From Sistotremastrum niveocremeum HHB9708 (Eukaryota > Basidiomycota > Agaricomycetes > Sistotremastrales > Sistotremastraceae), in NCBI GenBank assembly GCA_001630475.1, contig KV419421.1, positions 277,519 through 341,518 of the forward strand: a stretch of 64,000 nt of DNA, in the 5' to 3' direction. The number at the start of each line of letters is the position of its first letter. Position 1 is the stretch's first letter. Of this stretch, positions 27,258 through 58,965 are shown in pieces. The notes beneath the pieces are model-generated. The model did not search any database. It was not told the origin of the DNA and saw only the letters and a list, made by a program, of their open reading frames with translations. A program made the translations under genes and the position numbers.

Positions 27258-27927
27258 GATGAGTGAAGGCAGGTGAACGAAACAAGCGCCGAACTGACTG
27301 GCGCTAAAAGCTGTTGAAAGTCCGAAACCGAAACAGCCGAAACATCCGCTGTGAAACATCCAGGTCGCGTGAGGGGCATGGCCCGTGCACGACGCGCGGG
27401 AGTATATAATGGCGAGTGAAGTGTCACCTGTTCCCCATCTCTTGTGCTCGGGCATGTACTGTCGCCAGTGAGGTTTTTACCGAGGCACAGTCTTTTGCTG
27501 ATTGCAAACAATACATCCGTCTACCTTGCTTACCTTCGGGTCTGCAGAATTTTTGAAACCCCTTCATCTCTCGATGAAATTTCTATACACTTTAGTTGTA
27601 GTGCAATACATTTGCTTTACCATCAACCTATTCGTGGGAATGTGAACTCCAATGATTGATTTGTCGACCTCATACCGTCAACCAATTTTTAAGTTACAGA
27701 ACGGAAGAACGCCGTGGTATTGTTGCTGTCACAAGATGAAGCCATCGCCTTCTGGGGGTTTAGACTTTGTAAGTCTGACTATCACCATGACTCCTTTGTC
27801 GCGGCCGCGCCAGAAAATCGGGCGTGCGCACACGGCCCCGCAAACAGCTCCCGAACTCGAGTCAACATCGTCATGGTCGCACATCAAAACCAACCCCTAA
27901 CACCCATTCCCCTCTCTCTATCCAACC
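27258..27927. promoter_or_regulatory. Divergent promoter region, SGF73 / SWIM-ligase
   Basis: A 670-base gap between two start codons pointing away from each other. It presumably holds both promoters and leaders. Short frames inside (for example 27652-27900) have no motif. No TATA element or factor site stands out. Confidence 0.4.
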
Positions 27928-31064: not shown

Positions 31065-31550
31065 GGAAAATGCGGCCAGAAGTTGCTTCGGCGATTTCCA
31101 CGGCGTCGCCGAGGACCGTCCAAAGCAAATCCAAAGCGTTCACAGCGGACCCTGGACAATTATCCCAAAAGAATATGGTGGAAATATTATGAGATTGTGT
31201 TACTTGTTCCCCCAGTTTTCGAAGGGAGAAAATTTTGAGAAAATGTTGAGAATAGCGGCTTTTCCGGGAATACGTTGAGATTGTGCCCATTTTCACAGAA
31301 AATTCTCAGTGAGTAAAGACTGAATTCATTAGACGGAATCTCATCATATTCTCAGTGTTATCTCTTGGGATTTTTGTGTCGGGCCCGCTGTGGTTGCGCA
31401 CGCAGGGTGATCATTCAACGCTGATGAGGAGTTCCTATGAGGCCTATGAGATAATAAATTATATTTAAAATCTACACAGGGAGCCAGAATGATTTTGTCT
31501 TCTAAGCTTATAATCATGAACCGCAAAGCAGGAACAGACTTGAGAACAGA

Positions 31551-33520: not shown

Positions 33521-34204
33521 ATTAACGGCCTGAGGTCAAGCAGTCTGACCGGGCCAAGTTCAGGAACTCTGCGCACAGCTAAGGAAAATCAAGTTAGTGA
33601 CGACCAAAATCATGTAGATGTCTTTACCCACAGGCCACAATGAAAACACACAAAACTGGTCACAGCCTAGAGCTCTTATTGGACCATGTAGCGCTCGAGT
33701 TGTGAGCGAAGTGATCAATCAAGCGAACTTAGAGAAGGAAAGCTGCTGACGTAATTGAGTCAGGTACCGACGAAGACGAATTTCCGAGCTCAAACGCCAA
33801 GATCAAGAAATAAAATTACACCCTTCCCTCTAGGCGGGTGTGCATATAACCTAAATACAGTACTAGATAGTAAACACTACGAGAACTAGATTACGTATTT
33901 GGAGAGGAAAAGACCGGACGCGAATAGAAATATTTTCTGAGAAATGCAGCCCAAGCTCATTGCATGACCCTTGTCAAGAGTTCAAACAAAGCGAAAAATC
34001 TTGAAGACAGAAATGCCACAGGATTGATTGCGGGCCATACAAATATGGCCAGCATTGCTGATGAACAATCATCACTAGCATTGGCCAGAGACCGCCACCT
34101 GTCTCATTGGTTTCGTGGTAGTGGAGGGTGGCCGAGGGTGCAAGCCGACTAAGCACACTATGATGAGTATCGGTCTCCATGTCTCAGCTTGACAACGTAC
34201 GGAC

Positions 34205-34960
34205 TTAGGGGTCTCGATTGAGCTTTGACTGGTAGAAATCTCGGACGAGGAGAGGGTCCCTGAAGAACTCGAAGTAAACGCAGAAGATCCTCACGTCGAG
34301 TTCTTCGCTGTTGCGCTCATCGGATGGACGATAGTGAAAACTTTGGTATCTGTAGTCATGCGGATCGTACAACCGAGGTACATCCAACTACGGTCTTGAG
34401 AACATCGACGAGCCGGCAGAGTGGCACGAGGATGAACGCTTGGGCGGATTCCACGCATTTCATGCCTGGGTCTTGAGGGTCTGTCAGAGGTCGTGGTGGT
34501 TTGGCATGAAGCGGGATGCGGCGGCATAGATGACCGTAAAGAGGAAAGGGGACCGGACATTTTCTTTTCCAGGGTCTATACTGCGAGGTCGAGCAGCAAA
34601 ACGGAAGACTGGGATACCGTTGGTCTCGGTCAAAAGAAAGAGGGAGCAGGAGGTGCTTACGTTCAGGACTTGGAAATAGGCAGCGAACGACTCTTCGACT
34701 TCCTTGACACCGACCAGACCTCTCGTCATACAATCCAAAGGATCCTGCGCCTCCAAATGCAGCGGAGGATTCGCCGCGGGATCTACATCCATAACGTTAA
34801 ACCTGATCAGCTTCAGGCTCGCTACAGAAGGGAAAGACATACCGGCTCGCAGACAAGCGACTGTATATAGTATGTCATGAGTGGCTAATTAATACTGATT
34901 GCTGAGAACGCATACCTTCGACGGACAGTGCATTGAGTAGCACGAACAGGGAGACAGTTG
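34205..34960 (-). pseudogene. Fragment of a fungal Zn2Cys6-type transcription factor (middle homology region)
   Basis: Minus-strand pieces match the fungal transcription factor domain (PF04082 type). DVDPAANPPLHLEAQDPLD, then GLVGVKEVEESFAAYFQVLN, end at a GTAAGC donor. The next exon reads DPGKENVRSPFLFTVIYAAA, SRFMPNHHDL. Further on KCVESAQAFILVPL and, in a different frame, RRCSQDRSWMYLGCTIRM correspond to the usual VxxxQAYxLLSLY and EDRSWLYxGxAIRMA motifs. The two last motifs are out of frame with each other, and I found no DNA-binding Cys6 cluster or C-terminal half nearby. An intron at about 34867-34920 (GTATGC ... ACAG) is still recognisable. I read this as a decayed or truncated host gene. 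Confidence 0.5.
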
Positions 34961-35034
34961 ATGGGTGCGTAGGAGATCCTCACCAGACACAGGACAAGCC
35001 GCGGCTGGTCTCCCAGTCGACGACAGATCCCGTC

Positions 35035-35198
35035 TGGCTGCTGCCATATAGGCAGCCACTTCAGCTCAGCTCACCTCTTGCCGTCGACAATCAGAACTGC
35101 CTAAGCAGAATGGTCGTTTGAACTCACAAACATACACAGCAAGAGGGTCTGCTCCCGGACCCAGGAGCAGAGAGCTCACAAGCAGCCTTGCGGCTGCT
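35035..35198. repeat. Hairpin-array repeat, unit 1
   Basis: Four successive perfect inverted repeats: H1 TGGCTGC/GCAGCCA (35035-35041, 35052-35058), H2 CCTCTTGC/GCAAGAGG (35074-35081, 35139-35146), H3 TCTGCTCC/GGAGCAGA (35148-35155, 35164-35171), H4 AGCAGCC-TTGC-GGCTGCT (35181-35198). Inside the H2 loop are further pairs, CGAC/GTCG (35085-35088, 35113-35116) and CTGC/GCAG (35097-35100, 35105-35108). The H2 loop is nearly identical to that of unit 2 while the stems differ. Confidence 0.75.
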
Positions 35199-35231
35199 GC
35201 GAGAAGGGCCTTGTTCCCAACAGACACGATG

Positions 35232-35403
35232 CATTCTATAGCTGGAACCCCAGTCCATAGAATGTCGCTCTGTCTCAGGTCGACTCACCCGTCACCGTCG
35301 ACAATCAGAACTGCATAAGCAGAATGGTCGTTTGAACTCAGGAACATACACGGTGACGGGGTCTGCTCCTAGGAGCAGCGAGCCCACAACAGCCTTGCGG
35401 TTG
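35232..35403. repeat. Hairpin-array repeat, unit 2
   Basis: Same layout as unit 1, about 214 bases on. H1 is CATTCTAT/ATAGAATG (35232-35239, 35257-35264), H2 CCCGTCACCGT/ACGGTGACGGG (35288-35298, 35350-35360), H3 TGCTCC/GGAGCA (35364-35369, 35372-35377), H4 CAGCC-TTGC-GGTTG (35390-35403, one G-T pair). The H2 loop keeps the inner CTGC/GCAG hairpin (35311-35322). H1 and H2 stem sequences are unrelated to unit 1, yet both still pair perfectly. Confidence 0.75.
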
Positions 35404-35410
35404 ATGTGAG

Positions 35411-38400
35411 AGGAGGGAACAAGAAAGGATGGGGGACTCTTCCGATAGTGCGAAATTACTTATGCTTTCGACGGGCTGGGATTGAACATTCAAAGAACGA
35501 CGATAGCAACGGGCAACCAAAGCAGACGCACCGACTTATACATTCTGCATTATTCTTTGGAGGGGAGACGAGCAAGAGTTCCAAGAGAAAGGCCAGCAGC
35601 GGAAGACTCAAGGGAAGACTGAGCGGAAGCAGGAGCGGAATCGGATGTCGAGCGTTGATAGTAGCGACGAGCTCGCGACCACCCCTCCTCTTGACTCGTT
35701 CAAGCATGTTACCGGTGCGCGTTCCTCTTTATTATGACTTGGATGATATACTTCGGGTGCTCAGATTAGTTGTTCAATGTCTCCCATTGACATCAAAATT
35801 TTCCAGCAATTTTTAGTCATTTTAACGCCCGAATCGCGACAACGCCGTCACAACGGGAACTTAAAATTTCTTTATTCTACCTTGACTCAGACTTGACGTG
35901 ATCCTAGACCTACATATTCGTACCTTGTATATCTTGCTTCAGGATTTTATCTGTGCTCCAAAGTCGATATCATCAGCCTTCAGGTTTCTCTACCTTCATC
36001 GCCGCGGTGAAACCTGCAAAGACCAACGAATGTCACGCGACGAGAGAAGCAAAGGCAGACAGATAGGCCAACTGACTGAGATCGAGATGGACGTTCCCGC
36101 ATTCTCGTCCCTTGGTACAAGTCGCAAGTGCAAGATATCCAAGAGACAGTGCGGTGGGGTCTTTGTGACTGGTTGCACAATCCGACGAAGAATGGCTGTT
36201 GCCCCATCCAACCATAATCGAGAACCGCATCGTCGGAGGCTCGAAGCTAGTTCCGCAGCTCCCTTGATCGACGCAGCTCTCCTACGCTTCATCAGCCTCG
36301 CCGTTTCCTTGGCAATCATAGGAAGAGAACATACTCTCGAGGATAATGGGAAACGATGACCGTAGGATCACCTCTCTTCTGGCATCGCTCAAGACCTTTG
36401 AAGTCGGCTCGTCGAAGGAATGAACGGGACTGCATTGAGCGAGGTTGAGGACAGCCGTTGCATCTGGTTTATCATCTGGACAAGTATCCGCCATTCACAG
36501 AGCGATTATCTGAGGCTTTGGTTTCACATGAGACGGAGGAAAGGGAGGTTAGAAAAATATTAAACATACAGGTACTCAAACGTCGGACGGAGGTAAGAGG
36601 AGGCAATGAGTCAACTGAGGTCGGTGAGACGCGCAAATTGCAGTGGTAGGACGCCGCATCGTTGTGTGATTCGCTCTCGTAGCCAAGGTAGGAGGCGTTC
36701 ATATATGAGAGAATTGACAAGTTTAGACAGTGCAGCCCAATACTGATCGGTTTACTGAGTGAGGGTGTTAATTCGAAGGATTCCGGAGAAGAGAGCGTTT
36801 ATATGGCGCTGAGCGTAGTCGCAGCTTTACTGAAAATGATGAGAATGTCATGAATTAAGACTATTAAGCTCACTCACGAGAAGCAGGAATCCATGTTCTA
36901 CTAGCTTTTTATGACCAGTTATGGCAGCGAATTGAGGACGGATGGGGCATAGGAGATAGGCTGCGACGTAGAACATTCATGGTAAAGATCCTGATAGAAT
37001 CGTAAACCTTTGAATATCGGATACGAATCATCCTTGAACTTACCTGGCCCATGATGCTATTGTGGAATGTCGTCGATCACGACAGCCCGAACGACAGATC
37101 CGGCGATTGTCTCTCTTCTGCGAGCGTGACGATTTTTTGGGTGTCCCGGTGCATAGATCATACATCGAAGCCGCCGAATGAGTTCAATTTGGCTTGCGGA
37201 CGTCGGGACTAAACGCGCCGAGAGGCCATATGGAAGGCGTCATAATGCTGATATGTTGATGGGGGTTCGACATAGTGGCATAATGCTCTGGGAGAATCCT
37301 GCAGCTACAATAGTTGCTTGAAGATAGGTAAGAGCGCATCCGATGATCAGGGATTGATACTGGAGGAGACAATGCTTGGTTCCTTTCGGAGGGCACTGAG
37401 AGCACGACCTTCGCAATCACGGCATCTGGAAAAAGACTCAGTCTATCTCTCGAAAGTAGGACCCAGTGGCCCACGAACCAGATGAGTCACAGCCTTCAGA
37501 ATGCAACTCTCTATCCTTTGCTTCTGATCTACGATGCCATATGGATTGGGACTTCTTCCGGGGTATGTTGCATGGAGTATGTTGACTTCTAGGAGACGCA
37601 GGCTAGATGCCACCTCGGCGATGCTGAAGTTCCATAATCGATGTCCATACGACGGATGCGAGAGATTATGCCAGTGGATGCCACGCTGCCGTCTGGTCAG
37701 CAAGATAATCCCAAGACGATGAACGCGTCACTCACGAGTAAAGCAGCATCGCGGCTATCCCACCGTTTCCACTGTCTGCCAACCATTTCCCTTAATCGAT
37801 TGATGCTCAGGCCTTCCTTACTGATAAAGACGTCTTTTCAAGTAGACTACTGCCAGAGCCAAACGTCGTGATCCGTGCTCTCCTCAAGTCTGAGTAGTCA
37901 TGAGTCACTATTGACCATTATTCTCAGTATTGTTGATAGGAGTACCTGGAACTCTGAAAGTCAAGAGAGGAGATGTCCCTTCCAAAGTCCTCAAATCGCC
38001 GCAACGCAACCGAACTTGAAGATGCGCATTCCATGCAAGTCTTCACCACAGCCAGATATCTCTCGGTGTGTTGATGTGAAAGACGAGTAATACTTCTGAA
38101 GACAGAGTAGCCAGCCTTTGAGGTTTGAGGCCCGTCAGCGCGTGACTGACGTCGACGACGGTCAAGAAAGTCTGGGACATTGATGACTAAGCAATACGGC
38201 TTCATCGTTCTGAGAATCTGAGCCCTCGGTATTGCCAATATCTATATCTGATGACTTATCCTACGATGAATCTGCGTCCGTCGTTCCAAAAATGTGCATA
38301 ATCTGGATCCCTCTGCTCAAATTCTCGAATTTGCGTTTTTACTTGGCTTTTACGGTCATCGGTTGTGTTCCCAGCTCGAACAAAAGGCGACTTCCCAGGT

Positions 38401-38930
38401 TGATGACCATGGAATCTTCTTGTGTATTCAAGGCTGATGCAAGGATCAGGTGCGATGGCTTGCGCTCAGTAATACTGTATTGGAAAGCCGAGGTCCCATC
38501 GATGATCATTCAGGCCGAATGCGCTCTTGATTTCATCAAAGCATTGCGGTCCATCATGACTCCTTGGTCGTTTCTCTGGACTCAAACGTACCGATCATCG
38601 CAAATTAGCCTTTGAAATGATACCACAAGATTATCTTATTATATAGGCGAAGTTGAGATGGGCATACCCCCTCCCAGAAGATGGGTCCGAACCGCGTTTC
38701 CATCGTGCATCAAACGGAGTCCATGCTCGTCGACACAGTCTTCGGTCCATCGAAGTCTCTCTCCAATAGTGAAACTGTCTCCTTGAAAGTCGCTAAGCGT
38801 CCGACACAACGGTCGCACAGTGATCTCTGCCACCCCACCCGCACACCTTCATACGCTGTGCCCCAGAGCATCAAGGGCCCATTTTTCTCGCGAATGGTTT
38901 CCGCTCCGACTCATTGTATAATGAAGCCCA
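35411..38930 (-). other. Gene-poor stretch with weak minus-strand coding pieces
   Basis: Nothing convincing is seen from 35411 to 36281. From 36282 to 38930 several minus frames look like remains of an F-box or leucine-rich protein, for example LPWLRERITQRCGVLPLQFA at about 36600-36690 and WNFSIAEVASSLRLLEVNIL at about 37570-37630. Stops and frame changes are frequent and I could not join them into one gene. A low-quality or decayed locus is the most I can support. Confidence 0.25.
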
Positions 38931-47969: not shown

Positions 47970-50280
47970 ATGTCATCTGTCAACCCCCGTTTCCGTCTCG
48001 CAATCGTGTAAGCCCTCCCCCTCCCCTTCCTGCTCTACTTTCTTCCTTCGACTATGATACTCGCTGTGCTCACTGTGCTCACAGGGGCGGCGGAATAGGC
48101 GGCCTATCACTAGCCGTAGCCCTAAAAAACGACCCCACAATCCAAATCCACATATTCGAAAAAGCACCCGATTTCGTGCCCATGGCCGGTGCGGGGATGA
48201 GCGTATGGCCACGCACTGTGAGCGTCTTTCGGAAGTGGGGATTCGAGGATTCGTTCAGGGGGATCGTTACTCAGAGTCCTGTTCCTGGTATGTCCCTCTT
48301 CCTCAGATAATATGGGATGAAGGCTGAGAGGAGGAGATTTGGCTTGGGAGATGAGGAAGAGCGATCAGAGGGAGGGTGTTTTATTTCATGTTTGGAAACT
48401 CGCCGGTGCGCATACACCCTCCATTTTTCCAAGCGGATAATAATATCAATGGTATGTAGGCGGCCTACACTCATTCCACCGCGCCCACCTCCTCTCACTC
48501 CTCTCATCCCTCCTCCCGCCATCATGCTACACATTCTCATCCCCTCTCAAATCATACACTCAATCACCCTCCTCAAATAGTGTAACACTCCATTTCGAAA
48601 ACGCCCCTTCGCAGACGTTCGACGCTTTAATAGCAGCAGACGGACTATGGTCTCCTGTCCGTACTCAAATGTACAAGGAACTCTCTAGTACTGGTTTTAC
48701 TAGTACTAGTACAGGTCCTAGTAAAGCAGGTGGGGAGGGCAAGGTGGATTGTTTGCCAAAGTGGACGGGTACGACTGTGTTTAGGGCTTTGATACCTTTG
48801 AAGAATTTAGCGGAATTCGATCCTTCGCATCGAGCTTTACGAGCTCCTCAAATGGTACGTCCCCCCCCCCCGCCGACCGCAGGGAGGCCCCCTTCCCCTT
48901 CCCCCCCTCCATCCACTGACTCACATCTTCTAGTATTGCGGACACAACAAAGTACTTCCCCCCTCCTCCAAATCCAATCCGAAAAGTACTGATGATGGGA
49001 CAGAGAGTCCTAACCTACCCAATGAACCGAGGCGAAACAATAAACTTTGTCCTCTTCCTCTCATCCCCCTCAAAAGAAGGAACATCGTACGAACAGCATT
49101 GGGAATGGCAGAAGGAGAGTGATGTCTCTAAGGCGTATTTGGGGGGACTTTTGGAGGGGTGGGAGGAGGAGGTGCAGGTTCTTGTTAGGGTGCGTTGTGT
49201 TCTCCCTGTCTCTTCCCTTCCCCTCTCCTTTCGTCTTCTTATATACCCGGGAGCTGCGTCTCGTGATTCATGGCCGTTCACCGATTCTATCGACTTGAAC
49301 GTCAATTTTAGATTTCGAAATGTTGAACCGCGTGCTCATTTGCTCATTTGCTGATGCTGATGTCCTATAAAACAAAATAGATGATCCCCGACCGCCTCGG
49401 ACCCCCAGGCCCAACACGCTGGCCTCTTTACGCTCTTAACCCTCTCCCGGAGTATACGAATGGACGTGTGGCGCTTTTGGGTGATGCGGTATGTACGGAT
49501 CCGATTTTGGCGTGGGTTTTGCTGATGAGTTTCTGTTTCTTTGTTTTTCCCTCTTTGTCCCTCGTCCTGGCCTTGTTTTCTTTGTGGTCGTTGGTACTTG
49601 GTCTTGTCCTTGTCCTCGTCATTGCGCTCGCTTGGTGATTTGATATGGTGATACGATGTGATGTATTGGTGGACAGGCACACGCTACAACACCCCACTTC
49701 GGCTTCGGCGCCTGCTCCTCAATCGAAGTTCGTCCCTTCTCTGCCCATCTCCCCTCCCAACACTAACAAATCTCCCCATCTCTTCCGAATCCCCCCTCAA
49801 AAAATTCCCCTCCCGGAAACTACGAAAATTTTCCCTTTGGAAAAATAGGACGCACTAACACTATCCACCCTCCTCCTCGACCCCCGTACAACCTCCCAAA
49901 CACTGCCACTAGCACTGGACGTATATGGGAAGGTGAGATGTGAAGAGGGACGGAGGATTATTGAGGGGTCGAGGGAGGTTGGATTTTTATATGAGTTTAG
50001 TGCGGCGGGCATTCGACGTGGTCCTGATGGTCCTGATGGTTCGAGTTCGAGGAGTCCTGGGAGCCCGGAGAGTCCTGTTAGCCCTTTATCGAGTTCGTCG
50101 AGTGGCGGACAAAGTGGGGGTGGGGAAGGGAGGGGAGAAAGGGAAGAAGGAGAGGTGGATTTGAAGAGAGTAAGCGAGTTGATAGGGATTAAGACGAGGT
50201 GGATTGGGGAGGGGGATGTGTGGGGGGATGTTGAGGGTGCTTTGAGGGTTTATGGGGAGAGGTTGGCAACCATTGGCTAG
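47970..50280 (+). CDS. FAD-dependent monooxygenase, salicylate hydroxylase-like
   Basis: The first exon MSSVNPRFRLAIV joins across an intron to GGGIGGLSLAVALKNDP, the GxGxxG dinucleotide-binding motif, then IHIFEKAPDFVPMAGAGMSV and WPRTVSVFRKWGFEDSFRGI. Later exons have SDQREGVLFHV, TFDALIAADGLWSPVRTQMY (the second FAD motif, usually G-A-D-G-x-x-S-x-V-R), MNRGETINFVLFLSS, GRVALLGDA joined to AHATTPHFGFGACSSIE (the GDAAHA-x-x-P-x-x-G-x-G motif), and end LRVYGERLATIG at 50278-50280. This order is that of class A flavoprotein hydroxylases acting on salicylate-like aromatics; the substrate is inferred. A Gly/Ser-rich insert at about 50010-50150 is unusual near the C-terminus. Several introns have donors followed at once by C/T-rich tracts. 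Likely cytosolic. Confidence 0.85.
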
Positions 50281-51898
50281 TTATCAAGCGAGCGGAGATG
50301 GTGGGATTGGTAGGAGGGACGGGGGTGGGACGGTCATGGAGGGCTTTGTGTGGATTAAGTTGGGTTTGTCGGGGGCGAGGGTGAGGGGAGATATTACATG
50401 GACTTGGGTTTACTCATTGGGTTTATTCATCGGGCTTTTGGAGTTCTTTTTTCTGTTGTTTTTCTGTGTCTCTGTGCCGACATGACATATACATATAGAC
50501 TGGATTCTGAGTCAGGGACGAAACATTATATCAATATCACGTCTCAAAGCTTCGAGTTTCGAATTCGCGCGTGGGTCAACACTAATAGTACTGTGGGAGA
50601 ATAAATCGTGGAGACCATGAAGGCCATTGACATGTGGGTATACGTACTGTATGCCTGTATGCATTGACGGTGTATGGAAATAGAATAATAGTACAAGGAG
50701 TCTTGTACCCTCTTTTCGCCGTCCTTGTTTTGTCGACGTCTTGTATTGTCAATGAGGATAACATTTTAGGGTTGCTTTGAGCCTTGATATTTTTCTAATG
50801 CTTCTGATCTGCGTCTTCTTGATGCTTGCTTCTTGATTCTCGTATTCGATGTTTCACCTTTCGCGTTTACAGTAAGTGTTTCAAGTAGACTCGCGTGGAA
50901 CGAAGTCCGTAATTTTCATCCAGTCGTCCACGATCGGAATTGACACAAGCCTGAGCTCGGAGAACGGACCGTAAAGACAGAAGGAGAGCTACAGTAGAAC
51001 CAGAAGCAGGAACAAACCCAAAAGGACCAGATCAAAGCCCAAAGCGCCTCGCGAACTCTGAAACTTCAATATTGAAGTAACATCGAACAGAAGCCTGAGC
51101 GGTGTCGTCATGACATCACCCATTGGCATGCTATTTCCTGAATCAGTCACTGCAGGCTGTGTTGACAGATTCTACAAGTTCCAAGGGTTGAGGCCGTTAG
51201 GGTTCTGAGGGTTCTGCGGATCACTTTACGAAGGACCCATTTCGGGGAGGGACCTCGTGCTCACTTGACTTCTGTTGTCGGATCAGTGGCATTGATCGTT
51301 GGAGTTTGGGGTGTTGTGCGATTTGGAATGATCATAAGTTGATCATGAGGATGGAAAGGTAGTGTTTCATCCTTGCCTTGTGCTGGATTTGGAGGATGGA
51401 GTGTCCATGCGGTTTTGCATATCCCGTCTAATAACTTGATTCTACACGCGGGTCTGCATTCAATATATCCCAATCCACCTCCTCCACCTCAATCTAGCAG
51501 CACCGCGAGTCAAAGCCATCGTAAACTGAAAGTGAGAGCAAAGTGAAAGGAAAGAGAGTCCCAGTCGGCTAAACAGGCTAAACAAGCAAAAGAAGCGCCA
51601 AAGCCAATCATCGTCACGACAGCGTGCGAAGATCGACATCCTTCCCCCATCTCTCGCATCGACTCCGACTCTGCATCGGGGCATCGGTGACGTGACGGCG
51701 GATCGGGGTGTCACGCTCGGAGTGACATCCGAGTTCTTGGTTCGAGTGCTTTGATTTGGTGCTTCGTACGCGGGCTGGTGTTGGGGTACTTAACCTAAAG
51801 AGAATTCTGTCGGTGTCTATTCCCCTCCTGAGTCTTAGGTTAGGCTCACTCTGTTGGAGAGCGGAAGATCTGAAGCTTGAGGGATTACTGGTATTGGG
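50281..51898. other. Intergenic region before the Zn2Cys6 factor
   Basis: About 1.6 kb. Frames at 51261-51473, 51460-51714 and 51614-52000 on the minus strand overlap each other and the next gene's leader and show no motif. No structured element stood out. It presumably includes the promoter of the transcription factor. Confidence 0.4.
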
Positions 51899-54800
51899 AT
51901 GTCGGCGGGATATACGACGGGATATCCGAATGTTGCGGTGAACGTTGGCGGTCAATCGCAGCAGAGACGACTTTCTATCTCTTCCCAATCTCAACCTCAA
52001 CCTCCACCCCAGGCGCAGAATCCGGCACGGTCAGGTGCTTCCCATCCCTCTCATCCACACCCGACCGCGAACCCGAGCTATCAATCCTTCCCCACTCATC
52101 CCAATCCTCACGCTCAAGGTGGAATGTCAATGTCAATGTCGATGTCGATGCCCCCTCCTCCTCCTCCAGCTATGGAACACTCCACTTCAACGGGTACGAC
52201 GAGTACGAGTAAGGATAAGCGAAAAGGTGTGAAAGTCAATGCGTGTCAGGAATGTAAACGGTTCGTCTCCCTTCCTCCTCCTTCCTCCCTTCTTTATCCC
52301 CCCTTCCTCCCTTCTCCGCCTTCTTTCCTTGCTGGCTTTGTGTGGCTGGCGCTGGAACGACGATCTGGCGAGCGGTGCTTGTGGGGACACGTCCCCGACA
52401 CCCCGGCTGGGGTACGATATATGATAAGCGCCCAGTTCCGTGCTTATAGGCTTTTTCCTTTCTTGTCTAGTCCCCTTGCGACTCCATCAGTGCCTGACAT
52501 TGCTTCCTGATTTCATCCGACCCGAATGTGCTTCTGACGACTATCTATCTGATAGGTTAAAACTCAAATGCGATAAAAAATTCCCTTGTTCGAGCTGTGT
52601 CAAACGAGGCTGCTGTACGTCCCCCCCTCCCCGTCATTCTCTCGTCCCCATTGATTTATTGACACGAAAAATAGCTGCAATATGCCCCGACGGACAATTC
52701 GTAACCGGCAAAGGCTCCCGCTTCATAATGGCCGGTACGAAACGCCTCCATACCAAAATCGACGTTCTCTCCGATCGAATTCGGGCCTTAGAAGCGGGGT
52801 TGGAAGAATTGCAGAAAGTTGTTAAGCCGGGGGAAAGACATGTGCTTTTGTCGGAGGAGTTGATGAAGATTAAGAGTCATCAGGATTTGTTGGATGATCC
52901 TGAGGGGAAGTTGGATCATGCGGCGGGATCTTCGGGGGCCGGAGGAGGGAGCTGGAGTTCGGCGTTGGATTCTGCGGCAGGAGGGAGTGGGGATTATGGA
53001 GGGGCGGAGAGAATTGATTTGACGGATGTGGAGGAGGAGAGTGATAATGAGGGTGCGAGAGTTACCTCGGGGACCTTGACTATTCGAGCGAGTGGGTCGT
53101 CTACTTATTTCGGATCGACAGCTCGAGCGGAGGTACGTCCCCTCCCCTCCTCCTTCCTTTCTTACTAATGAATCTCGTAGTATTTCCTCGTGGTAAGCCC
53201 CCTCCCTCTGTGGTGGAATTTATTGATAAGGTTGGTAGGGCCCGGAAGATCTAGGAATTATGGGTTCCCCACTACCCATTCCTATCCATCTATTAAGCCA
53301 TACGTTCCCACTTGGTACACTCGTCGATACGGTTGATGCGCTGCGGTCGGAACTTCAACAACAGATCCCGACGCCGCATGAGACGAAGCGTCTTTCGGAC
53401 CTTTATCATACGCGTGTGAATTGGTACGTCCTCCTCCGTTCATCCCCTCCTCCACATCTTCCTCTCCTCCTTACCTGTCTCTTACTCTCAATGATCCGGA
53501 AACCAACTGACATCGTCGCTATGGCAGGCTCTACGACCCCCTCCCCGACTCCTACGACTTCATCCAAGACCTCCGCATGGAGCTCTACTCCGCAAAATTC
53601 GGCGACGCAGACCCGCATCGCATGTCCTTGTTGTTCATCATCCTCGCCTTAGGGTCCCTTGTTGATTTAGAGGAGAGGCCGTATAGTGAGAGTGCGAATC
53701 GGTATTATGAGCTTTCGAGAGCTAGTTTGAGTTTGAGGCCTGTTATTGAGATGGCTAGTATTACTGCTATTCAGACGCTTGTAAGCCTTCCTTCCTTCTC
53801 CTTTACTCCTTCCCTTCCTTCTCCTCCCCGCCCTTCCTTCCTTCCTCCCTTCCTCCCTTCCTTCCTTTCTTTCTTCGTCGTTTTTTGGTTTTGGTTTTGT
53901 GTTTGTGTTTGGGTTGGGTTTGGTTTGAGGATGGCGCTGATACGTGTGTAGATCTTGAGTTGTTATTATTTGCTCTTGGGGAACAAGAAACCCGATCCCG
54001 CATGGACAATGATGGGTCTCGCCATCAAACTCGCGCAAAGTGTACGTCCTTCCCCTTCCCCCCCCTCTCTACCCTCTTTTCCCTCGTACTAACTAACTCA
54101 CAGCTCGGCCTCCGTACGTCCCCCTCCCCCAGCCTTCGATCAAAGACTGAATGATTGGATGGATGAATATGAATAGATCGAGACGACTGGAATCTCAACA
54201 CGGACGAAGCACAACAACGTCGTGTCTTATGGTGGGAAGTCGTAACACTCGAAGGATGGATGGTACGGCGCATCTTCTCTCTTTATACAGTGGGTTGATC
54301 GTCGTACGTATATTAACAGAGTCTTGGATTTGGGAGACCGCCTTCGGTGAGGCTTTTGACTGTTAATAGTAAGCTGCCGAGATATTCGAGTGATCCGCGG
54401 GATTCACAATGTACGTCCCTCCCCCTCCTCTATCAATACTCATAACTGATAACTGATAATAATATGAAGACCGATCATGGATGCACGCATTCGGCAAAGA
54501 AAACCTCCCCGCCGTCCTCGAAGTCGCCCTGGGCGCCAAATCACCCGATTATCCCACCATCCAACGCACAGAAGCTAACATCTCGAAATCATTCGTCCCT
54601 CCCGCTTTACGCGTAATGGAAGCTAGTCCTGCACCTGGCGAGATTCCGCTCGCATTGACTTTTCAGAGGTCTATGGTTATCACTGCTCGTACTCTCAGTT
54701 CGTTATTCCCTTTTTCTAAGTAAGGAGAGGGGGGCTGATTGGTCCGTAGCGCTGTTAAAGCTTCACGGAAGTTGGTTCACACTAGCTCTAACGGAAAATG

Positions 54801-56544: not shown

Positions 56545-58965
56545 CGTGTTTTCGTTGTCTTGTTCTTCTTTTTGGTCGGTGGCATTGCGCTGCGCTGCGT
56601 TGTCACTAAAATTGTCAGTCATTGTTGAAGTTTCATTTCGTCATTTCTTGGTCAGCTTGCAACTTGCATAGTTCGTGAACGTGTAACCAATGTATCAAAT
56701 AGCAATTTGATTATTAGATTTTTTGATCCCTATCGTCGAGTGGTGGAAGTCCAGATGCTCGTGTTATTTTTGTTATCTCCCACTGAGCAGGCTGAGTCAA
56801 TGGCTGGGTGAGTGGTGGGACACGTGGTATGATCCGACGCAGCGGGTGCAAGTCAACGCCGAAATCCGAAGTCCGACTGTTCTTGTTCGTTTTTTGATGT
56901 TGAGATCGAGAGAACGCCGTAACGCGCTACACTTTCGAAAACTAGATGTTCGGGATTCGACAACTGGAAGGATTCTGTAGACCAATTTTCACGCGTAGCG
57001 CTCGAGTGCCGCTCGAGGAATTCTTGAATGTTGATTCCGCCACTCGCTGTGGCCTTCGGAAGCGGACCCACAAGACCCTTGGCTGAGTTTCAAGTTCCAT
57101 TCGGTATATAAGATCGCTTTCCCTCTCGCTTCGCCTTTCTTCCATTCCCTCCCATCATCCCCCACTCCCCCCACTCCCTTTTCCTCTTCCCCTCCTCCCT
57201 CCTCCTTCCTCATCTCCTCCCTCCCTTGCCTCTCCCTCAAGCCCGTCCACATCACCCCACCTCGCAGGCCTCAGGCTCCCCCTTCTTCTCCCTCATGGCC
57301 TCGTCACTCCCACTCCGATACTGACCACTCGCTATCCTTTCAGAGGTCGACTCTGTCCCTTCTTACCCTGACCCGCTGCAGTCCCGAGAGCGGATATATG
57401 TTCTAGTCGATGCGTCCTTTGTCGCGGAAGGACCCAGGCGTCGGTCGTGATGATGGCGACCGATACGGACCGATGACGCATATCATCACTCGGACGCAAG
57501 ACTCAAGACTCAAGACCAAGACACAAGATTCAAGACTGAAGACCAAGCCGCAAGATCAAGACGCAAGACCAAGACGCAAGACCAAGACGCAAGATCAAGA
57601 CGCAAGACCAAGACGCAAGCCCGAAGACTCAAGACTAGATCGATGAAGATCGATGAAGACACCGAAACCTGGGCAAGATCATGGTAAGCAGCGTAAGTAC
57701 CCGCGAGCTGGCTGACTAGGTCCCCCAGAGGATGCCGAGGTCAGGTATCAACAGCCATCCGGCGATTAGAGCATGGTCTTGTCGGCAGTCGTATGGAGAG
57801 ATATCCCGCACGCGAGATGTGAAACTTGGGGTTCGCTCCAGGGAGTAGTACTCTCACTCGATATCTCTTCGTATTGTGAAGGTCGGCCAGAGGATCCTGT
57901 ACCAATGAAGGAAGACCTTCACACGTGGCCCCTTCTGAGCCGTCTCTCCCTCGGGATCGAGACCTAGTGCTTCACAGAAGGTGGCCACCGTGGCTTGGAT
58001 AATCGGTCGGAGGTTGGCAGGGAATCCATACCCAACTTTGCCTGTTGGCGGCACTCCTGAGTTCATCCCCACGCGGACGGGCCGGCGGTATGTCAACTGG
58101 TTTACCTTGACTTACCAGCTCGGAGATCGCCTCTCCCTAAGCTTCATTGGACTGCATATAGTCGATTTTCATGCTCCGCGTAATGCTTGTCGTTCGCCGA
58201 GGCAAAGCATGAACGGGGAGCCGGTGGGATCGTGTGTATTTGTGAGTTTTCTTCTTATTTTCTTCCTTCTTCTTCTTTTCCTTCCTCCTGCGTTTATCTT
58301 TCGTGCCTGCGGGGTGGTTGGATTTGAACAAAGTGAGCTCTCCTTTGCCTTTCGTCCACCCGATCACCCCCTTCGTCGTCGGTGCCACTCACTTTGAAGG
58401 TCTATTTGTCAAACAGCGTCGTCAGTGTTCCATCGTACGTTCTTCCCTAACATCCTGTCTTGCGAATCCGCTGATATCGAGACCAGCTATGTCCACGAAC
58501 CCATCCCAAGCTTATGAGTCCTCAACAGTAAGTGAATCTACAGCTTCGTCCCTCCGCTACTTTTCAACTCGCTGAAGCCGTCGCCAGGGAGTCCGGAGGG
58601 AGCCAGAAGCAATTATCAAATTCGGCCCATGCATCGGGCAGGAGAGATGAAATATAGAGGGGGGATTAGCGAGGGCTTTCTGTGTAGGGATGACGTGCAG
58701 TATCATCCCCTCCTCCGTAGTCAATCGCGCTTCCGAGTCATGACAAATGTAACTTGCATTGTACTACTTCCTATCTAAACTAAATCCAATCCTTTCACGT
58801 TATTGGAGCTATGTGTGCCACAAAATCGAAACCTTGAGTCGAAGAGAAGAGTTGAATCGGATATTACGTAATGACCGGGATCCCTGAGGTCGTACTTGAT
58901 ATCTGCCCATGCGTTGTACTTTCCCTCTCTCCACTGCCTCAACCTACGACACATAGTCCAAAAGT
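56545..58965. other. Convergent intergenic region
   Basis: 2.4 kb between the ends of two convergent genes. It has a long pyrimidine-rich tract (about 57120-57260) and the minisatellite listed separately. Frames such as 57981-58397 and 57854-58096 lack recognisable motifs and overlap each other. I see no supportable gene. Confidence 0.4.
57496..57635. repeat. Minisatellite, 13-bp unit
   Basis: A tandem array built on CAAGACGCAAGAC. About five well-kept units lie in 57550-57620, with decayed units (CAAGACTCAAGACC-like) on both sides. The 13-base period is not a multiple of three, which argues against coding. Confidence 0.85.

Follow-up and report, generated by a model that had tools for sequence, protein, structure and literature searches.

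Covarying stems point to a multicopy family of twin-module RNAs in the fungus Sistotremastrum niveocremeum

The window analyzed here, a 64,000-nucleotide stretch of contig KV419421.1 (contig C28 below) of S. niveocremeum HHB9708, carries two tandem units at 34975-35410 whose matching DNA recurs elsewhere in the same genome. The stems of these units are almost certainly conserved by selection on RNA structure, and selection has most likely acted on the minus-strand RNA rather than on plus-strand RNA or on a DNA cruciform alone. We lean toward reading the element as a stand-alone minus-strand noncoding RNA gene with two binding modules.

Tandem units recur on six contigs

Four DNA queries of the assembly (34.7 Mb, 111 contigs) found unit DNA at no fewer than 19 places on six contigs: one on C28 (the window copy), four each on C73, C42, and C97, five on C84, and one on C48, all of these counts being lower bounds. 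The end of contig C42 holds a short additional piece of the family beyond its four copies. Both units matched a covariance model at 17 places; the remaining two places are partial, one cut by a contig end and the other incomplete, and beyond these no lone single unit was seen in the genome. Among the fetched loci, profile and covariance-model searches alike recovered 36 units, all of them from one genome and mutually related.

The copy on C28 stands apart, and the other copies are clustered. Close copies have long noncoding flanks in common and lie within inverted or direct segmental duplications; in distant copies, detectable homology is down to approximately the dimer and a 5′ block, about 500 bases around the dimer. 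A search for a telomere link found TTAGGG in four tandem copies nowhere in the assembly. In 60-base bins, identity between the window copy and C73:19.5k was 93 to 100% over 34940-35659, compared with 60 to 85% (33860-34759), 87 to 89% (between 34759 and 34940), and 73 to 88% (35660-36172) in the flanks. The element (~34975-35410) therefore lies within a block, 34940 to ~35660, that is conserved in this one pair of copies. Features of the window copy are as follows.

33864..38726: wider homology block to copies of the C73/C97 clusters, in pieces of ~71 to 85% (DNA comparison)
34861..34915, minus strand: second intron-like stretch, GTATGC...TATACAG, 55 nt, seen in the sequence
34975..35058, minus strand: module 1 H1 (GGCTGCC-TATAT-GGCAGC) and long H0 with a GAGA loop
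35059..35203, minus strand: module 1 core (3′ module), architecture as in module 2 (cmsearch 148.6 bits, E 2.1e-33, the unit belonging to the model's training set)
35074..35084, minus strand: 3′ arm of P2 in module 1, partner 35136-35146
35204..35272, minus strand: module 2 linker with long H0 (CATTCTAT...ATAGAATG) and no H1 (fold, alifold)
35273..35410, minus strand: module 2 core (5′ module), with GNRA hairpin H4, P1, H3, and P2 with apical P4/P5/P6 (cmsearch 132 bits, E 1.9e-29, this unit likewise in the training set; alignments)
35288..35298, minus strand: 3′ arm of P2 in module 2, partner 35350-35360
35411..35660, minus strand: conserved 5′ block, a 56-nt intron-like stretch GTGCGT...CCCAG followed by a TATA-like CATAAGT and CCCCCA

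Architecture of the minus-strand RNA

In the RNA, module 2 (35410 to 35204) precedes module 1 (35203 to 34975). Read 5′ to 3′ on the minus strand, a module consists of H4, then P1, which closes the junction where H3 and P2 meet, then H1 and the long H0. P2 carries a second, nested junction, with P4 and P5/P6. H1, which has a 5-nt loop, and the long H0 follow the module core in most copies examined, and H4 has been lost in one module of C42:282k. P5 has an invariant CGAC/GUCG; the other two stems at the P2 tip, P4 and P6, are variable. On the minus strand, the loop is GCAA in most H4 hairpins, many first modules have GAGA or GAAA as their H0 loop, and the tip of P6 reads UUCG in several copies.

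An earlier note on this DNA had described two units with differing stems and a nearly identical loop, and all of these are present where it placed them, within an element that runs longer (~34975-35410) than the 35035-35403 it gave. The note also held that two stems had changed in both arms. Its comparison of H1 with H1 paired nonhomologous hairpins: the second-unit stem CATTCTAT/ATAGAATG belongs to H0, which the first unit carries at ~34982-35038, and TGGCTGC/GCAGCCA is H1 of the first unit (~35040-35056), which the second unit of the window copy lacks. Because those stems are not homologous, only the comparison of P2 (the note's H2) is a true double change within the window pair, and for P2 the claim was borne out by the alignments below.

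Stems covary beyond alignment and tree controls

Two alignments (A1 and A2) contained 32 of the 36 matched units; two C42:269k units identical to those of C42:261k, one unit cut by the contig end, and one partial unit were left out. A third (A3) comprised 22 of the 32 units (21 distinct) and was made with MAFFT, structure being ignored in aligning. The ten units left out of A3, either with P2 out of register in MAFFT or odd, still scored 69.8 to 109.2 bits against the covariance model and were restored in A4, in which all 36 matches are aligned to the model and which is hence biased toward it.

In A3, 94.2% of the cells of the 47-pair structure were paired, and sliding one arm by 1 to 3 columns left only 29.4 to 48.4% paired. 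The covariation score was 0.267 versus 0.167 (standard deviation, 0.008) in shuffled alignments, a value equaled by none of 500 shuffles, and double changes occurred at 15 of the 47 pairs, a number equaled by 2 of 500. The biased A4 gave similar values (94.5% of cells paired; double changes in 17 of 47 pairs, with 0 of 500 shuffles equaling them). The count of further pair types was not clearly above shuffles in A3, where 160 of 500 reached it, and exceeded them only modestly in A4 (21 of 500).

On a tree built from unpaired columns, we counted 29 double changes that kept a pair, compared with 0 to 4 in eight slid versions, and a single P2 pair alone underwent 6 such events; recombination between units may inflate these counts, and the sequences scored are the ones from which the structure itself was derived. 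The family copies thus supply the further homologs with paired changes on which the earlier note had made its proposal depend. Changes from paired to unpaired numbered 28 on the tree, no fewer than in the slid versions (12 to 33). When 2,298 variable column pairs were ranked without a tree, a P2 pair came first. Of the 16 proposed pairs that vary, 8 were among the top 74 and the other 8 ranked lower, down to 668.

The arms of H1 and H0 also vary in step, less cleanly in module 1, where 54 of 336 cells of the H1/H0 alignment were nonstandard (35 other, 19 A-C) and some rows were out of register. The hairpin segments compared (12 in alignment A5 and 10 in A6) were hand-picked from 16 loci, and some A5 rows are misregistered in H1. 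Between the window copy and C73:19.5k there are seven substitutions in 436 bases, and two of them (35079 and 35141) are P2 partners.

The structured strand is the minus strand

Given the plus-strand alignment, RNAalifold produced a poor structure in which a single pair covaried, and this result led us to test the strand. In the larger alignment (16 dimers), the minus strand had 151 G-U cells and 13 A-C cells; in the smaller one, the numbers were 103 and 14. An A-C cell on the minus strand is G-U on the plus strand, so that the ratio of 151 to 13 makes minus-strand RNA the most likely object of selection. The minus-strand fold was the more stable in 31 of 32 units, the exception differing by 0.2 kcal/mol, and for the whole dimer the folding energies were −198.5 kcal/mol (z −6.6) on the minus strand and −173.5 kcal/mol (z −5.2) on the plus strand. 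The plus-strand reading of the earlier note is therefore superseded. Of the two objects of selection that it had named, RNA structure stands, and a cruciform alone is strongly disfavored by the asymmetry between G-U and A-C.

The two tips of a locus resemble each other

The apical domain is the part of the module that varies most between loci. Its identity was nevertheless 0.84 within loci versus 0.55 between them, and none of 5,000 permutations equaled this. The rest of the module had an identity of 0.78 within loci versus 0.74 to 0.80 between them; this, too, was equaled by 0 of 5,000 permutations, the difference being small. The comparison, in an alignment fitted to the model, covered 16 of the 17 dimers (C42:269k was left out). 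In the window copy, the tips are 0.94 identical and the remainder 0.71. Across eight representative loci, 8 of 16 tips but 2 of 16 module remainders had their locus mate as nearest neighbor. The tips are unlike in C97:12k and its near-copy C84:23k (0.48 and 0.52), and the likeness is weaker in C84:28k (0.72) and in the C48 copy (0.78).

Equal tips on unequal stems could arise in either of two ways, by conversion tracts ending at P2 or from a function demanding matching tips. Conversion tracts would be expected to end at P2, since a tract extending into one arm breaks the stem. The likeness of tips within a locus could be gene conversion without function.

Flanking signals and coding tests

A stretch of 55 to 59 bases, GTRCGT...CCCAG, is found in 12 of 16 loci, ending ~65 to 68 bases before the first unit; of the other four loci, a contig end truncates one, the block has been replaced in another, and the stretch is missing from two that are near-copies of each other. 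This splice-like pattern, picked after the alignment had been viewed, resembles a fungal intron. Stretches like the second one (34861..34915) are also present in C73:13k, C73:19k, and C42:282k. The window copy has a TATA-like word ~35 bases (counted by eye) before CCCCCA. From such sequence signals, the 5′ block may be read as an intron or a promoter.

Intron-like signals on both sides of the dimer, together with an open reading frame (ORF) containing MSFPSV just downstream, might suggest that the dimer acts in cis as the leader (5′ UTR or intron) for a minus-strand gene downstream of it, e.g., as a tandem aptamer-like regulator. Tandem riboswitch aptamers, such as those for glycine, consist of two similar modules with conserved unpaired cores and drifting stems, and the family resembles them in having two similar adjacent folded modules with such cores and such stems. 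It differs from them in that the tip is its most variable part, the host is a eukaryote, Rfam has no match, and no common downstream gene is seen. We consider a leader unlikely, though deserving of attention, since the sequence 3′ of the dimer on the minus strand differs between subfamilies, so that the linkage to a common regulated gene that marks tandem riboswitches was not found, and since the 3′ flank was without a codon pattern in the copy pair tested. The MSFPSV ORF was rejected as a downstream gene because the closest copy (C73) does not keep its frame intact.

A coding explanation of the flanks was also rejected, as no coding signal appeared, either in mismatches by codon position or in indels, in the three flank stretches compared within 33864..38726. 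Mismatches at the three codon positions were 0.235/0.202/0.233, 0.124/0.185/0.148, and 0.242/0.237/0.234, and 13 of 20, 8 of 12, and 23 of 30 indels (44 of 62 in total) were not multiples of three. Two pairs of neighboring F-box/LRR-like ORFs, serving as the control, gave 0.32/0.22/0.58 and 0.33/0.26/0.56, with such indels numbering 0 of 4 and 2 of 5.

Mobility, promoters, and DNA structure

The earlier note had offered a structure-dependent mobile repeat as one option, and the dimer might instead belong to a selfish or mobile segment, the structure serving the segment's own copying. Such a segment would fit a multicopy, clustered family with a lone copy on C28, inverted duplications, and a homology of distant copies confined to ~500 bases around the dimer. 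We doubt this reading, because close pairs are homologous for kilobases beyond the structure, in the manner of segmental duplication, none of 8 cluster ORFs had a Pfam match above the cutoff, and one strict pattern had zero matches in viral contigs.

Transcription by polymerase III (Pol III) from an internal promoter in the leader appears improbable. A B-box-like TTCRANCCC does lie upstream of the dimer, with the variants TTCAATCCC, TTCAAGCCC, and TTCGAGCCC at the matching position in most copies. It coincides, however, with the intron-like stretch and can equally be read as the 3′ end of that 55- to 59-nt intron (12 of 16 loci). By the known rules for Pol III terminators, moreover, the runs of 4 to 5 T within some modules are expected to stop the enzyme, and the alignment showed no T-run common to the copies.

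An snRNA-type promoter was tried and rejected: CATGGCCCGTGCACGA was missing from the RNA-sense strand at 15 of 15 loci (~500 bases upstream, up to 4 mismatches). This motif is common to the U4 gene and the three U2 copies compared in the same genome; a fourth U2 copy, read from its other side, was left out. The U4 spliceosomal RNA gene lies in the window at 27438-27567 (66.5 bits), with TATATAA and CATGGCCCGTGCACGA upstream, and U2 RNA has 8 above-cutoff matches on contig C6, spanning ~470 kb. The family resembles U4 and U2 in being a short structured RNA and differs in that its loci have no upstream CATGGCCCGTGCACGA.

The weakest alternative, a DNA palindrome or cruciform whose pairing is maintained either through template-switch correction or through binding of a dimeric protein to the DNA, could draw on the long near-perfect arms of some copies, such as the long hairpin of C42:278k, but we give it hardly any credence, as DNA pairing provides no reason for an excess of G-U over A-C on one strand (151 versus 13) or for GNRA and UUCG loops on the minus strand.

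Comparison with known RNAs

Rfam 15 returned three matches at E values of up to 5 in window positions 34800-35700, all far below the cutoff; no gathering-score match was found at 10 of the 12 fetched cluster loci, and no match at E values of up to 5 was found in L018 8900-9800. The only gathering-score Rfam hit in the window is U4. The statement of the earlier note that no RNA class fits thus holds as far as Rfam 15 is concerned. For a tRNA-like element or a SINE of tRNA origin, ARAGORN predicted 0 genes in the window. H/ACA snoRNAs consist of two hairpins; the two-part architecture is alike, and here each half is multibranched and without a gathering-score Rfam match. Structured noncoding RNAs are marked by strand-specific wobble pairs and by covariation that exceeds alignment and tree controls, and the family shows both.

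A covariation screen of fungi (Gao, Jones, and Rivas 2021, PMC8216456) used, according to its Figure 1 legend, a genome set of Ascomycota only, and on that account other fungi would be less explored. In Li and Breaker 2017 (PMC5640933), the word "tandem" is absent, and the section list has no motif of this kind. The RNAs of both papers are fungal structures supported by comparison, and the present family differs in being multicopy and built of tandem modules. A literature search that included excerpts of PMC8216456 and PMC5640933 found no twin-module RNA like the window family.

Gene neighborhood

The dimers are found amid ORFs that belong to a large F-box/LRR-like family with 71 genomic matches, close to one subfamily of it. 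Pfam gave nothing above the cutoff for the members tested, so the F-box/LRR-like label was assigned by eye. Five matches, the query included, had at least 50% identity to the F-box/LRR-like query, and all were on C73, C84, and C42, contigs that carry dimers too. At C73:19k, C84:19k, and C84:33k, the RNA points toward the 3′ end of an F-box/LRR-like ORF ~0.6 to 1.4 kb away. At C42:261k and others it does not point to such an ORF, and antisense control is for this reason just a thought.

F-box/LRR-like ORFs are also present on C48 (106k-211k), C13, C28, C7, and C26. Near the dimers of L018 (on C84) and L020 (on C48) is a long ORF, 99% identical over 1.5 kb between the two loci and, in L020, without a Pfam family; window positions 31196-31392 match, at 95% identity, a segment of C84 adjoining the long ORF of L018. 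Elsewhere in the window, 57493-57636 is a tandem array of ~11 copies of a 13-base unit (alternatively read as a 7-base unit), and 50001-52000 is an outlier within the window in GC skew (+0.21).

Discussion

If the dimer is a stand-alone noncoding RNA gene, its transcript would be a structured RNA of ~440 nt behind a short leader, containing two copies of one folding module. Judging from sequence signals only, it would be transcribed by Pol II and possibly spliced. Each module may bind the same partner, whether protein or RNA, so that the RNA would act as a bivalent ribonucleoprotein (RNP) scaffold. The apical domain would then be the specificity part; such a role would explain why, at most loci, the two modules have nearly the same tip, and why tips differ between loci while the stems drift with paired changes.

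We can also imagine, speculatively and with little confidence, a new eukaryotic RNA class of two RNP modules with matched, locus-specific tips, in which the specificities of the RNA and of the F-box/LRR-like proteins evolve in parallel in a fast-evolving cluster. If that were true, each locus would encode its own specificity, for example in self/non-self recognition or in the choice of a cognate partner.

The genome of S. niveocremeum thus holds a multicopy family of twin-module RNAs that is well supported and unmatched in Rfam. Equal tips on unequal stems inside one locus form an unusual pattern, which would mean either that gene conversion respects stem boundaries or that function requires the two modules to match.
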